From: Paenibacillus taiwanensis DSM 18679
GTDB lineage: Bacteria > Bacillota > Bacilli > Paenibacillales > Paenibacillaceae
Assembly (NCBI RefSeq): GCF_000425125.1
Contig: NZ_KE384306.1
Span: 1-64,000 of the forward strand
DNA: 64,000 nucleotides
Reading direction: 5' to 3'
Numbering within the stretch: position 1 is the first letter of the stretch; every line of letters starts with the position of its first letter. Below the pieces are notes generated by a model. It was not told where the DNA came from. It searched no databases and worked only from the letters and a program-made list of their open reading frames with translations. Below are positions 38,410-53,628 of the stretch, in pieces. Position numbers and translations under genes: made by a program.

Positions 38410-38421
38410 GAACGTATGTTC
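38410..38421. promoter_or_regulatory. LexA-type box upstream of rarA
   Basis: GAACGTATGTTC, a perfect GAAC-N4-GTTC palindrome agreeing with the Bacillus SOS box (GAACRNRYGTTY). It lies 237 bases before rarA. No convincing -35/-10 pair is placed around it. The remaining bases to 38658 contain no gene that I can support. Confidence 0.5.
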
Positions 38422-38658: not shown

Positions 38659-39972
38659 ATGGATTTATTTTCGTATCAATCGGATCAGGAACCTGAGATG
38701 AGGTTGCTTGCTGATCGCATGCGTCCACGCACATTGGATGAATATGTAGGACAGGAACATATTGTGGGGCCGCAGCGTCTATTAAGGAGGGCGATAGAGT
38801 CAGACCGTGTATCCTCAATTTTGTTGTACGGACCACCTGGTTGTGGCAAGACAACGCTTGCCAACATCATTGCGGAGCGCACGCAAGGGGAATTCGTACG
38901 GCTAAATGCGGTAGACGCATCCGTTAAAGACGTTCGGGCCGTTATAGAACAAGCGGAGAATCGCAAAAATATGTACGCAGCCAAGACGATTCTGTTCTTG
39001 GATGAGGTGCATCGGTTTAACAAGTCACAGCAGGATGCGTTGCTGCCTGCGGTTGAGAAAGGAACGATTATTTTTATCGGCGCAACTACGGAGAATCCAT
39101 TTCATCATGTGAATGGAGCTTTAATTAGCCGGTCCACCTTATTTCAGCTAAAGGCATTAACATCAGAACATTGCCTGATTGCGATGCAGCGTGCGATGGC
39201 TGATAAGGAACGTGGCTTGGGCTTTATGCCGCTTCAAGTGAACGAGGATGCGCTCTTGCATATTGCCGAGATGGCGAATGGTGATATACGCCGTGCACTG
39301 AATGCGCTTGAGCTAGCTGCGATGACGACCATGCCACAGTCAGATGGCCAAGTCATTGTCACCATGACAGAAGCAGAAGAGTCTGTTCGCAGACCTATCG
39401 TCCGTGCTGATGAATCGACCCAATATGACGTACTATCCGCCTTTCATAAAAGTATTCGCGGATCGAGTGATGCAGCGTTGTTCTGGTTTTTTTATGCGGT
39501 AGATAAGCTTGGAATGGACCCGATGACGTTTATACGCCGTCTAACGGTTGCGTGCAGTGAAGATATCGGCTTGGCCAATCCGCAAGCCATGGTACAGGCT
39601 GTCAGTGCGCTAGAAGCTTATCATCGCATCGGATGGCCGGAATCGCAATACATTATTGCCCAGGCAATTTTGTTTGCGGTAGAGAGTCCGAAATCCAATT
39701 CAATCCCGCTTGCTATACAACGTGCGATGCAGGCGATGGATGATATTCGATCTGCTGAAGTTCCGCTTCATCTGCGGGACACGCATTACAAAGGGGCCGA
39801 CAAGTTGGGCCATAAGGGCTATCAGTATCCTCATGATTATGCTGGCCACTATGTGGCACAGCAGTATTTGCCGGATGCTATTCAGAACCGTGTGTTCTTT
39901 ATGGCAAACGAGCAAGGCATGGAGGCGAAGATGAAGGTGAATCAGGAGCTTCGGCGGCAGAAGGGGCGTTAA
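38659..39972 (+). CDS. rarA: Replication-associated recombination protein RarA (MgsA)
   Basis: A 437-residue AAA+ ATPase of the clamp-loader/RuvB group acting at stalled replication forks. It begins LADRMRPRTLDEYVGQEHI, Walker A YGPPGCGKTT at about residue 55, Walker B ILFLDEVHRFNKSQQDALLP at about 112, sensor ATTENPFH, and the RarA C-terminal tetramer domain (QYDVLSAFHKSIRGSSDAALFW, then MTFIRRLTVACSEDIGLANP). Length is normal. B. subtilis yrvN is its equivalent and sits in the same place. Confidence 0.95.
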   Translation: MDLFSYQSDQEPEMRLLADRMRPRTLDEYVGQEHIVGPQRLLRRAIESDRVSSILLYGPPGCGKTTLANIIAERTQGEFVRLNAVDASVKDVRAVIEQAENRKNMYAAKTILFLDEVHRFNKSQQDALLPAVEKGTIIFIGATTENPFHHVNGALISRSTLFQLKALTSEHCLIAMQRAMADKERGLGFMPLQVNEDALLHIAEMANGDIRRALNALELAAMTTMPQSDGQVIVTMTEAEESVRRPIVRADESTQYDVLSAFHKSIRGSSDAALFWFFYAVDKLGMDPMTFIRRLTVACSEDIGLANPQAMVQAVSALEAYHRIGWPESQYIIAQAILFAVESPKSNSIPLAIQRAMQAMDDIRSAEVPLHLRDTHYKGADKLGHKGYQYPHDYAGHYVAQQYLPDAIQNRVFFMANEQGMEAKMKVNQELRRQKGR

Positions 39973-51350: not shown

Positions 51351-52236
51351 GTGGTTATGGTGATCTTTATAAAGGGAGTAAGTTATATTTGAGAGCCTAG
51401 TTACTGGTTTTGAACTTCTTTGATTTTCTCCCATGGTAAAGTATGTGCCGTTTCGTGATCTTAGTTCCACTATCCCTTTTGCTCAGGAGATGAATATGAT
51501 GGCCGTCTATCACGTGAGTGAATATCTCAGACATGTAGACGTAGAAATATAGATAAATACAAACATAAATTCGCATAGAGGCACAACCACATAAACACAC
51601 AACCATACAAACGTAAAATCGTAAAATCAGCACACATAAAAAAGCTAAGACAGTGCTGTAAATGACGTTTTTTACAACCAATGCAAATAATACTGTGCCA
51701 AGTAAACTGAGCAAACATAACCGAACCACCAAAGCGGAATTAACAAAAATAAATTAACAGACTGACCAGTCGGAACTGACCTAATAAAACTAATCCACCA
51801 TCAATGCCCCGCTTTACAAATAGAAACTATCTACCATAGTTGATTAAATAGGAATGAATAAGCGGATATGAATAAACAGAGCAACCCCATCCATCATAGC
51901 TGAACAAATGTAACCGGATCGCCAGAGCTGATCAGAAAGCATTGCACATACAAAACTGAGCAAACAAAACAGAGCAAACAAAACAGAGCAAACAAAACAG
52001 CATCAAAAAGACGGGACAGACAAACTGAACATACAAAATGGACTGACAAAATTTAAAGAATATTACAGGATTGGCAGATTTGATCCATCATAAGCGAATT
52101 AATTTACTCAAAAGACCAAGCGACAGGCACTTCATAGTGGCTCATAAAATGAAAATAACCGAGAAAATATATTTAACGCCAAAACTAAATAAGTCATTTC
52201 GTTCGAGCTAGATGCATGTTGAAGTGAAGTGTTGAC
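51351..52236. other. Gene-poor A/C-rich region with short repeats
   Basis: No ORF here has a believable ribosome site or protein composition. The + strand is rich in A and C and poor in G. It contains a 14-bp tandem repeat and a diverged 38-bp repeat pair (51709-51747 and 51902-51938). The region separates the AI-2E-family terminator from the 3' end of the transposase-like gene. Confidence 0.6.
51951..52001 (+). repeat. 14-bp tandem repeat, about 3.6 copies
   Basis: Unit CAAAACAGAGCAAA: 51951-51964 (with one change), 51965-51978, 51979-51992, and a partial copy at 51993-52001. Confidence 0.9.
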
Positions 52237-53094
52237 TTAACAAATTTGGCAACAGAGCATGGAAAGATGTCTCCAGGTGGATATATGATGCGCTTCTAAG
52301 TTCAAACGATAGCAATACTCATCTAGGTACATTTGTAGATGTAATGCACCAACACCATGAAAAGTATTGTTTAGCCATGTTGACATGTGCTTAGCTAAAT
52401 TCTGTATAGGGACAGCTTGAGTACGCTGATGATAAGAAGTTAACGGAATAAAGCGAATCTTGTTGGCGGAAGAATGCTGCGTGTCGAACTGCTCATAAGC
52501 AATAGGGGATAATCGTCTCCCCGTAATCAATTCGCGACAAACTAACTTCATTTTGACCATAGTATTACTATTCCGCTCTAATGGATGACTGACAGCAGTA
52601 ATGAAGGGATGTTGTTTGGAGGATATGGCGGTGCTGGCTACATGCCGATGTGATTGACCATACAAAGTAAATGCAGCATCTATATGCCCGTTCAGTGTAT
52701 GTTGGGTGTCATGTTGGGAAATTACACGTCTAATCTTGTGTAGCATAGACCATGCGGTCTTGTAAGTCACGTGAAGGAGTGAACTTAACTCCACAGCATT
52801 AACACCTTTATCGCTGCGAGAAACGAACCAGATAGCAGTAAACCACTTGCGCAGTGTTGTTCTGCTCCGCTCCATCACTGTTGAAACGGTGAGAGAAGTC
52901 TGATGTGAGCAAGATTGACATTCATATAGAGGGATTCGGCGGGAGGCAATAGTATAACAATCTGTGTGTTGGCACCGTGGACAACTATAACCATCAGGCC
53001 ACTTCTGATGAAATAAGTACTGAATGCAAGCATCTTCACTATGAAAGTGCTGCAGGAAATGTTCAAGTGAAGCATATGTATGGAGTGCCTTCAA
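52237..53094 (-). CDS. IS1595-type transposase-like protein, possibly degenerate or domesticated
   Basis: A 285-residue protein. The N-terminal zinc ribbon has cysteines at 38, 41, 59 and 62 (CPRC, CQSC), then an HTH-like segment typical of the ISXO2/IS1595 group (SRTTLRKWFTAIWFVSRSDKG, VTYKTAWSMLHKIRR). The catalytic part is poor: D139 in GHIDAAF lacks the usual following Glu, no TDG-type middle Asp is visible, and only the end YLDEYCYRLN (E259) is family-like. Start is TTG with AAGGAGG 10 bases upstream. No terminal inverted repeats or target duplications are visible. The promoter carries two LexA-type boxes. Confidence 0.8.
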   Translation of the reverse strand: MKALHTYASLEHFLQHFHSEDACIQYLFHQKWPDGYSCPRCQHTDCYTIASRRIPLYECQSCSHQTSLTVSTVMERSRTTLRKWFTAIWFVSRSDKGVNAVELSSLLHVTYKTAWSMLHKIRRVISQHDTQHTLNGHIDAAFTLYGQSHRHVASTAISSKQHPFITAVSHPLERNSNTMVKMKLVCRELITGRRLSPIAYEQFDTQHSSANKIRFIPLTSYHQRTQAVPIQNLAKHMSTWLNNTFHGVGALHLQMYLDEYCYRLNLEAHHISTWRHLSMLCCQIC

Positions 53095-53134
53095 CTGAAT
53101 GTCGCCTCCTTGCGTGACATAACAACAATCATGA

Positions 53135-53185
53135 GAATGTATGTTCCTACTAATGAATTATACAGAACATACGTTCTTTTGTCTA
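53135..53185 (-). promoter_or_regulatory. SOS-type promoter of the transposase-like gene
   Basis: On the minus strand: TAGACA (53185-53180), exactly 17 bp, TATAAT (53162-53157). The spacer contains the palindrome GAACGTATGTTC (53165-53176), and a second box GAACATACATTC (53135-53146) lies 30 bp away, centre to centre, just past the expected start site. Both fit the Bacillus LexA box (GAACRNRYGTTY; one mismatch in the second). Confidence 0.75.
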
Positions 53186-53628
53186 GTGAAACGTTAGAAT
53201 GTGCATACCTAAGATGTCTCACTAAACTATTTGCATAACAAGGAATGTTTGGTGATCGAACGATTCTTATTTAGTCAGTTTTATAAATTTGAATAAACGG
53301 ATCGTGCGTAACAGGATTTGTGAGTTCATGTAAACGGATTGTGTTCGTATCGAATCTATTTGGATGTTCTGAGTTATTGGGATAGTGTTGCTAAGGAAGA
53401 TTAAAGAGAACAGCTACTTATAGCTGCTTTAAAGCTAAAATGGCTTATATGGCTGTAAAGAAGGATTGAATCACACCTATATAAAGACCATGCAACGACA
53501 TGTATACATAAAGCTAAAAACATGGACACATCGATGGAAACCGTGCAGATCCAATACTTGACCTTTACGCAGTGTAAATCTTTATGCTTATTATGTTCTA
53601 ACCATAAGGATGATGAGGAGGCAATGAA
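53186..53628. other. Intergenic region without a recognisable gene
   Basis: AT-rich spacer between the divergent transposase-like and methyltransferase genes. A small CAGCTA/TAGCTG hairpin lies at 53409-53424. No convincing ORF or sigma-A promoter for the methyltransferase was found. Confidence 0.5.

Follow-up and report, generated by a model that had tools for sequence, protein, structure and literature searches.

The window, that is, the whole stretch of 64,000 nucleotides of Paenibacillus taiwanensis DSM 18679 DNA analysed here, carries on its minus strand (52237..53094) a gene which starts at a TTG codon (position 53094) and encodes an IS1595-derived, catalytically dead protein of 285 amino acids, as judged from Pfam and NCBIfam matches and from a catalytic alignment. 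Its promoter, on the same strand, consists of a -35 hexamer TAGACA (53180-53185) and a -10 hexamer TATAAT (53157-53162), with a LexA-type box, GAACGTATGTTC (53165-53176), inside the 17-bp spacer and 2 nt before the -10 hexamer; a second box, GAACATACATTC (53135-53146), lies just downstream of the likely start site and is followed by a Shine-Dalgarno sequence, AAGGAGGCGAC (53101-53111). A repeat search delimited the whole element (51460..53395, no strand assigned) by two inward-facing arms, the distal one (51460..51491, plus strand) with TATCCCTTTTGCTCAG at 51471-51486 and the promoter-side one (53364..53395, minus strand) with TATCCCAATAACTCAG at 53369-53384. This inverted repeat is 32 nt long and imperfect (72% complementary), with the core TATCCC-N5-YTCAG, and no 8-bp target duplication was seen by eye at the element ends. 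Downstream of the gene, a direct-repeat search returned 14-bp-spaced repeats, AAACTGAGCAAACA (51690..52025, no strand assigned), which contain the reverse complement of GCTCAG; long arrays of similar, CTGAACTAACAGA-like units occupy the same place in the orthologous stretch L298.

An earlier note on this DNA had described a textbook SOS promoter, and the hexamers, their spacing, the box in the spacer and a second box 30 bp downstream of it are present as claimed. Nevertheless, some details have to be corrected. Box 1 had been called a perfect palindrome, but only its half-sites GAAC/GTTC are perfect, the centre GTAT not being self-complementary, and box 2 carries one half-site mismatch. The 30-bp distance had been read as a phase of three helical turns, which was rejected, since among 109 two-box loci the spacing is 25-32 bp in 101, with a mode of 28, and is thus not fixed at 30. 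The statistics of single sites were also rejected as proof of an SOS promoter. In the window, GAACNNNNGTTC occurs 5 times versus 0.79 expected; genome-wide it is not enriched (70 per strand versus 143 for the reversed-pattern control), and for GAACRTAYGTTC there were 5 occurrences versus 5 control matches. Because the GAACN4GTTC pattern is not enriched across the genome, the occurrence of a lone box proves nothing. What excludes chance for the window boxes is the conservation, across homologues, of the boxes, of their occurrence in pairs and of the 2-nt geometry.

Homologues occur in 68 of 147 genomes, the window's own being counted, with at least 16 matches in the richest genome and one in that of the window; the contig search covered the best 80 of 406 relatives and the class search the best 5 candidates per genome. 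The 240 loci retained gave 200 distinct proteins, 180 of them of at least 250 amino acids, the 20 shorter ones being left out of the counts, in which copy-rich genomes weigh more because the loci are the best search matches plus places hand-picked from those listed. With a box defined by at most one mismatch in the 8 half-site bases and within 220 bp upstream, 173 of 179 full-length loci were boxed, 111 having a perfect box and 109 two boxes; one of the 180 was without enough upstream DNA, and two distant IS1595 proteins, neither of them boxed, are counted among the 179. Control windows from the same loci (n=532) gave 33 with a box, 3 with a perfect box and none with two. Conservation upstream of orthologues, which had been set beforehand as a check, is thus confirmed (173/179 versus 33/532). 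The boxed loci comprise 159 of the 163 dead homologues and 14 of the 15 intact relatives, the fifteenth having only 20 nt of upstream DNA. In three of the four unboxed dead members a box pair was seen by eye further upstream, which probably reflects a misplaced start codon (starts were assigned by script), and the remaining one, L171, has no box within 400 bp upstream. Moreover, the spacing of exactly 2 nt between a box and a following -10-like hexamer, seen in the window, recurs in 113 of the 159 boxed dead homologues.

Other IS1595 loci behave differently from these. None of 12 such loci from plasmids and phages (one with only 61 bp upstream) has a GAAC-type box, and one of them, L318, matches the box pattern of E. 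coli. A profile search of viral contigs returned 72 IS1595-type loci. The upstream DNA of 67 was distinct and of sufficient length, and among these controls 12 carry a single imperfect box, with no perfect box and no box pair in the set. One of those 12, L329, resembles a relative of the intact SOS-boxed proteins. The viral contigs gave no match when searched with one TIR pattern, and weak homologues were found in 5 records of the phage collection.

The host has a single LexA match in its genome, and five GAACN4GTTC-type boxes lie upstream of lexA: GAACGGAGGTTC and GAACATCCGTTC have perfect half-sites, the former ending 5 nt before a TATAAT, and GAACTTATGTTT, GAACACACGTTT and AAACATGTGTTC have one mismatch each, AAACATGTGTTC lying towards the neighbouring gene. 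The host lexA promoter therefore has the same kind of operator as the window gene, whose box is of the Bacillus LexA type when judged against the consensus. As far as sequence can tell, the window gene is very probably a LexA target, and it may be expressed only on DNA damage, as the note had supposed. Further boxes were met with in the same genome. In the window itself, GAACGTATGTTC recurs with perfect half-sites at 38410-38421, after the preceding gene and 237 bp before an ATPase gene (38659-39972) which we take to be rarA/mgsA-like, so that this recombination factor may belong to the SOS regulon of P. taiwanensis. Elsewhere, two perfect boxes about 16 kb apart (L005 and L006, at C6:319007 and C6:335138) stand beside what by eye are phage-like genes, possibly a LexA-controlled prophage or tail-like region, and a third, L004, lies inside a coding sequence.

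As regards the protein, the note had spoken of an IS1595-type transposase gene. The IS1595 origin is supported by the Pfam zinc ribbon (Zn_ribbon_IS1595, 3e-09) and by the NCBIfam IS1595 transposase model (5.9e-25, over the cut-off). A working transposase is not, since there is no D-D pair, the gene is single-copy in its own genome and no target duplication was seen by eye; a multi-copy active insertion sequence in that genome was likewise rejected, one copy having been found, whereas several nearly identical copies are typical of insertion sequences, though no strict requirement. DDE_Tnp_IS1595 is matched by the window protein only over profile positions 111-153, under the cut-off, and over its whole length by four intact relatives. 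In a 45-member alignment (A2), which includes two intact proteins, the zinc ribbon is present in all 45, and 37 retain some similarity to the Pfam catalytic domain (E 0.01 or better). Both catalytic aspartates occur in only 15 of the 180 full-length proteins; among the 163 dead ones, 9 have the first aspartate only and none has both, a count that sets aside the outgroup rows L150 and L151, called dead by the column test, yet with IEIDETYVGG / VEVDETYIGG and TD motifs in their sequences and no boxes. A quick tree built from 54 of the proteins groups the 37 dead ones sampled on a single branch (SH-aLRT 100), without settling its position among the intact SOS-boxed proteins. An AlphaFold model built with 45 aligned sequences reached pLDDT 93.6 and pTM 0.91, and in our own reading its predicted order of strands and helices is RNase-H-like; a PDB fold search gave no significant match, the best being the ISCth4 transposase (E 0.017).

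The C-terminus is a further trait of the dead proteins. Of their 64 clusters at 60% identity, 48 end in A, S or G. A terminal AA pair occurs in 15, and none of the 39 positions next to it on the inner side has such a pair in more than 4. Ends of this type resemble ssrA-type degrons. The window protein ends in QIC and is without such a degron-like ending.

The terminal core is not peculiar to the window. Across 172 homologous loci with 700 bp available to either side, it was found facing inward 315 times (161 upstream and 154 downstream) and facing outward 1 and 0 times, respectively, and twice within the gene; 125 of the loci have at least one inward core and 59 have it on both sides. Short repeat arrays are common, often with periods of 42-49 and 54-74 bp. 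Core counts track gene counts over 28 genomes (Spearman 0.85), a set which omits G195 and G368 of the 30 genomes, as their elements have another TIR, and in which the gene counts of G274 and G222 come from the class search (best 5 candidates per genome). The 18 gene-bearing genomes have a median of 76 cores (lowest 11), and the 10 gene-less ones a median of 5 (highest 11). With one gene and 15 repeat matches in the window's genome, the role of the system there may be minor. In one genome, G088, gene-less inward-facing array pairs lie between open frames at L261 and L264-L268 and are miniature-element-like. In the same genome, L262 (772-1129 of G088:C1) shows seven 57-bp repeats, each with TATCCCGTTGACTCAG, within long open frames; 57 bp being 19 codons, that array may have grown within a gene.

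Intact and dead elements differ in the traces of insertion. Among 86 elements scanned at their outermost repeat pairs (78 dead, 8 intact), an exact 8-bp target duplication was detected in 5 of the 8 intact elements, all at a 6-nt offset, and in none of the background shifted by 200 nt, whereas at the matched offset it was found in 0 of the 78 dead elements with repeats on both sides. These five come from the widened scan; a narrower exact-offset scan, which excluded repeats overlapping the gene end, had given none. The duplications are AAATCAAA (L135), TACCACGA (L136), and ACATATGT, ACGTGTGT and ACGTATGT (L137, L138 and L140); at L132, TTTTTATT was seen by eye in AT-rich sequence. The duplicated bases of L137, L138 and L140 make up a LexA-box core, GA-[ACNNNNGT]-TC. 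A search of 50 genomes with the TIR of this intact subgroup (L137, L138, L140, L276 and L285-L297; G294, G272, G195, G524, G333 and G158) retrieved 8 elements in 6 of them, with 13 ends in all, and GAAYNNNNGTTC stands directly before every one of these ends, on one or other strand. Both ends were found for five elements. In three (two in G195, one in G272) an asymmetric box is directly repeated, as a duplication requires, the second G195 element having its ends 3.6 kb apart and its gene in two pieces; in G294 the box core is self-complementary and hence uninformative on direction, and in G524 the two boxes, like their flanks, are in inverted orientation, an arrangement that a simple duplication does not explain. 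No empty site with an intact box was matched in three genomes of that family. The subgroup may choose LexA boxes, by itself or through LexA. Beside one occupied box a predicted SOS-controlled gene was noted (L278, 6891-6983, minus strand); since the host-side box precedes a TATAAT, a Shine-Dalgarno sequence and a hydrophobic peptide of 30 amino acids, MDTQTYYLVSSIFLGLSIVIALINLTTKGK, it looks like a working host SOS promoter, into whose LexA box the IS1595 element seems to have inserted.

The reading towards which we lean is that the dead proteins are SOS-induced, TIR-binding proteins which control, and most likely restrain, related elements. The window gene would belong to a widespread protein group descended from SOS-controlled IS1595 transposons. 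LexA, bound to the two boxes over the promoter spacer and the start site, would block transcription, and its removal upon DNA damage would allow the protein to be made. With its zinc ribbon, its HTH and a predicted RNase-H-like fold retained and the catalytic D-D pair absent, the protein should bind TIRs without cutting them, and might thus occupy the TATCCC-N5-YTCAG repeats at its own and at related elements, so that the movement of the SOS-induced relatives would be controlled, most likely restrained. The ssrA-like endings of many members, the window protein excepted, would confine them to a short pulse after damage. LexA repression, induction, repeat binding, restraint of related elements and rapid turnover are all steps that we infer.

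The chief rival is self-propagation in some unusual way, which we consider unlikely: the dead proteins would still move their own elements, by non-DDE chemistry or with the help of an intact relative or of host enzymes recruited at damaged DNA, and SOS control would be the element's means of escape in a damaged cell. In favour of this, in six paralogue groups homology spans the gene and its promoter, in several pairs reaches the repeats, and ends within about 500 bp, the wider flanks of same-genome paralogues being unrelated. The dispersed copies are also under purifying selection, with dN/dS of 0.055-0.45 across 60 other pairs (the 60 most similar of 393, analysed together with the window pair). 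A low dN/dS of dispersed within-genome copies is as compatible with a self-serving element as with a host-serving repressor, which counts against the favoured reading. Gene-less inward arrays, which were present in 6 of the 11 gene-less stretches examined, are also in keeping with mobility. Against it stand the contrast in exact duplications between dead and intact elements and a 30-member alignment in which not one acidic position in the catalytic domain is invariant or reaches 90% conservation.

An insertion sequence in decay, functionless and with an SOS promoter simply inherited from its active ancestor, would account for the lost catalytic pair, the single copy and the missing target duplication, but is improbable in view of the closest orthologue, that in G003. 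The latter shares 83% amino-acid identity and the same gene neighbourhood, with 8.6 and 8.3 kb of aligned flanks, and comparison with it gave dN 0.097, dS 0.656 and dN/dS 0.148, which means that the protein has been maintained despite the loss of the catalytic pair, as is also indicated by the open frame kept. Moreover, box 2 of the orthologue has changed to GAACACTAGTTC, differing in the centre, yet both half-sites are kept, and the dead group is large and diverse. A clean empty site for the window element was not found through the neighbouring transporter homology in 18 genomes of the same genus, the locus being too variable; only G018 showed alaS in the stretch examined, directly after the transporter gene. 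Finally, a different repressor with this specificity, for instance a prophage-borne one, might occupy the boxes instead of the host LexA, as L005 and L006 might suggest, but this is most improbable, given that the host lexA promoter has the same kind of box, one of them 5 nt before its TATAAT, and that conservation of the boxes extends to genomes throughout the order and the class.

A wider reading joins the dead group, for which we favour the role of damage-induced repeat binding, to its intact relatives, and is offered as somewhat doubtful: the IS1595 group would be tied to the SOS response in three ways, by LexA-controlled transposase promoters, by insertion of one intact subgroup into LexA boxes and by a dead SOS-induced branch that binds repeats. 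If this were true, use of the box core as the 8-bp target would mean that both junctions rebuild a LexA box, and the dead branch would have spread through Paenibacillales genomes together with arrays of its binding site, as a damage-responsive repeat system. The large family which matches the NCBI model for IS1595 family transposases would then be neither junk nor working transposases, if the restraining role is correct, and would consist of DNA-binding proteins induced by damage, for which a candidate binding site is visible. Those intact relatives that lie in LexA boxes, in turn, offer a directly testable case of a transposon aiming at the operator of a regulator.

Searches of open-licence papers yielded no description of SOS or LexA control of IS1595, of an SOS-linked transposase in Paenibacillus, of a domesticated transposase under SOS control, of a LexA site or SOS box as an insertion target, or of dispersed repeats or ISXO2-like elements in Paenibacillus. 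The note knew of no such description for an IS1595-type gene; for other insertion sequences SOS control of the transposase is described, namely for ISCR, IS10 and, with controversy, Tn5 (PMC13393415), so that the finding is not fully new in kind.

In comparison with known systems, the window group shares with the IS1595 family (PF12760 and PF12762) the zinc ribbon, the HTH, the RNase-H-like domain and the TIRs. The intact relatives make 8-bp duplications, as does ISApl4 (PMC12561309). Unlike the family, the window group has no D-D pair, no target duplication, often iterated inward repeats and an SOS promoter. LexA acts on the transposase promoter, or on transposition, in ISCR1/2/8, IS10 and Tn5 (PMC13393415), as is predicted here; the ISCR transposases, however, belong to the HUH class, and the work on them used the E. 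coli LexA, whereas here IS1595 proteins are preceded usually by two boxes of the Bacillus type. Two subjects which are usually separate, the SOS regulon of soil Firmicutes and the domestication of transposons, are linked in the window group. In the RAYT/REPIN system, transposase-derived genes kept by selection are associated with dispersed short inverted repeats and with gene-less repeat elements, RAYTs being HUH (Y1) enzymes in which catalysis is kept. The likeness lies in dispersed short repeats which here too track gene number (Spearman 0.85); the window protein, however, matches IS1595 models and not the HUH (Y1) transposase, and its group is of the DDE type without the catalytic pair, often with many copies per genome, and under SOS control. 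A further comparison is with IS50 Inh and the KP protein of the P element, transposition repressors which derive from defective transposases and are competent in binding and deficient in catalysis. Unlike these, the dead proteins described here are encoded by separate genes, form an old and diverse group and are apparently induced by DNA damage together with their intact relatives.
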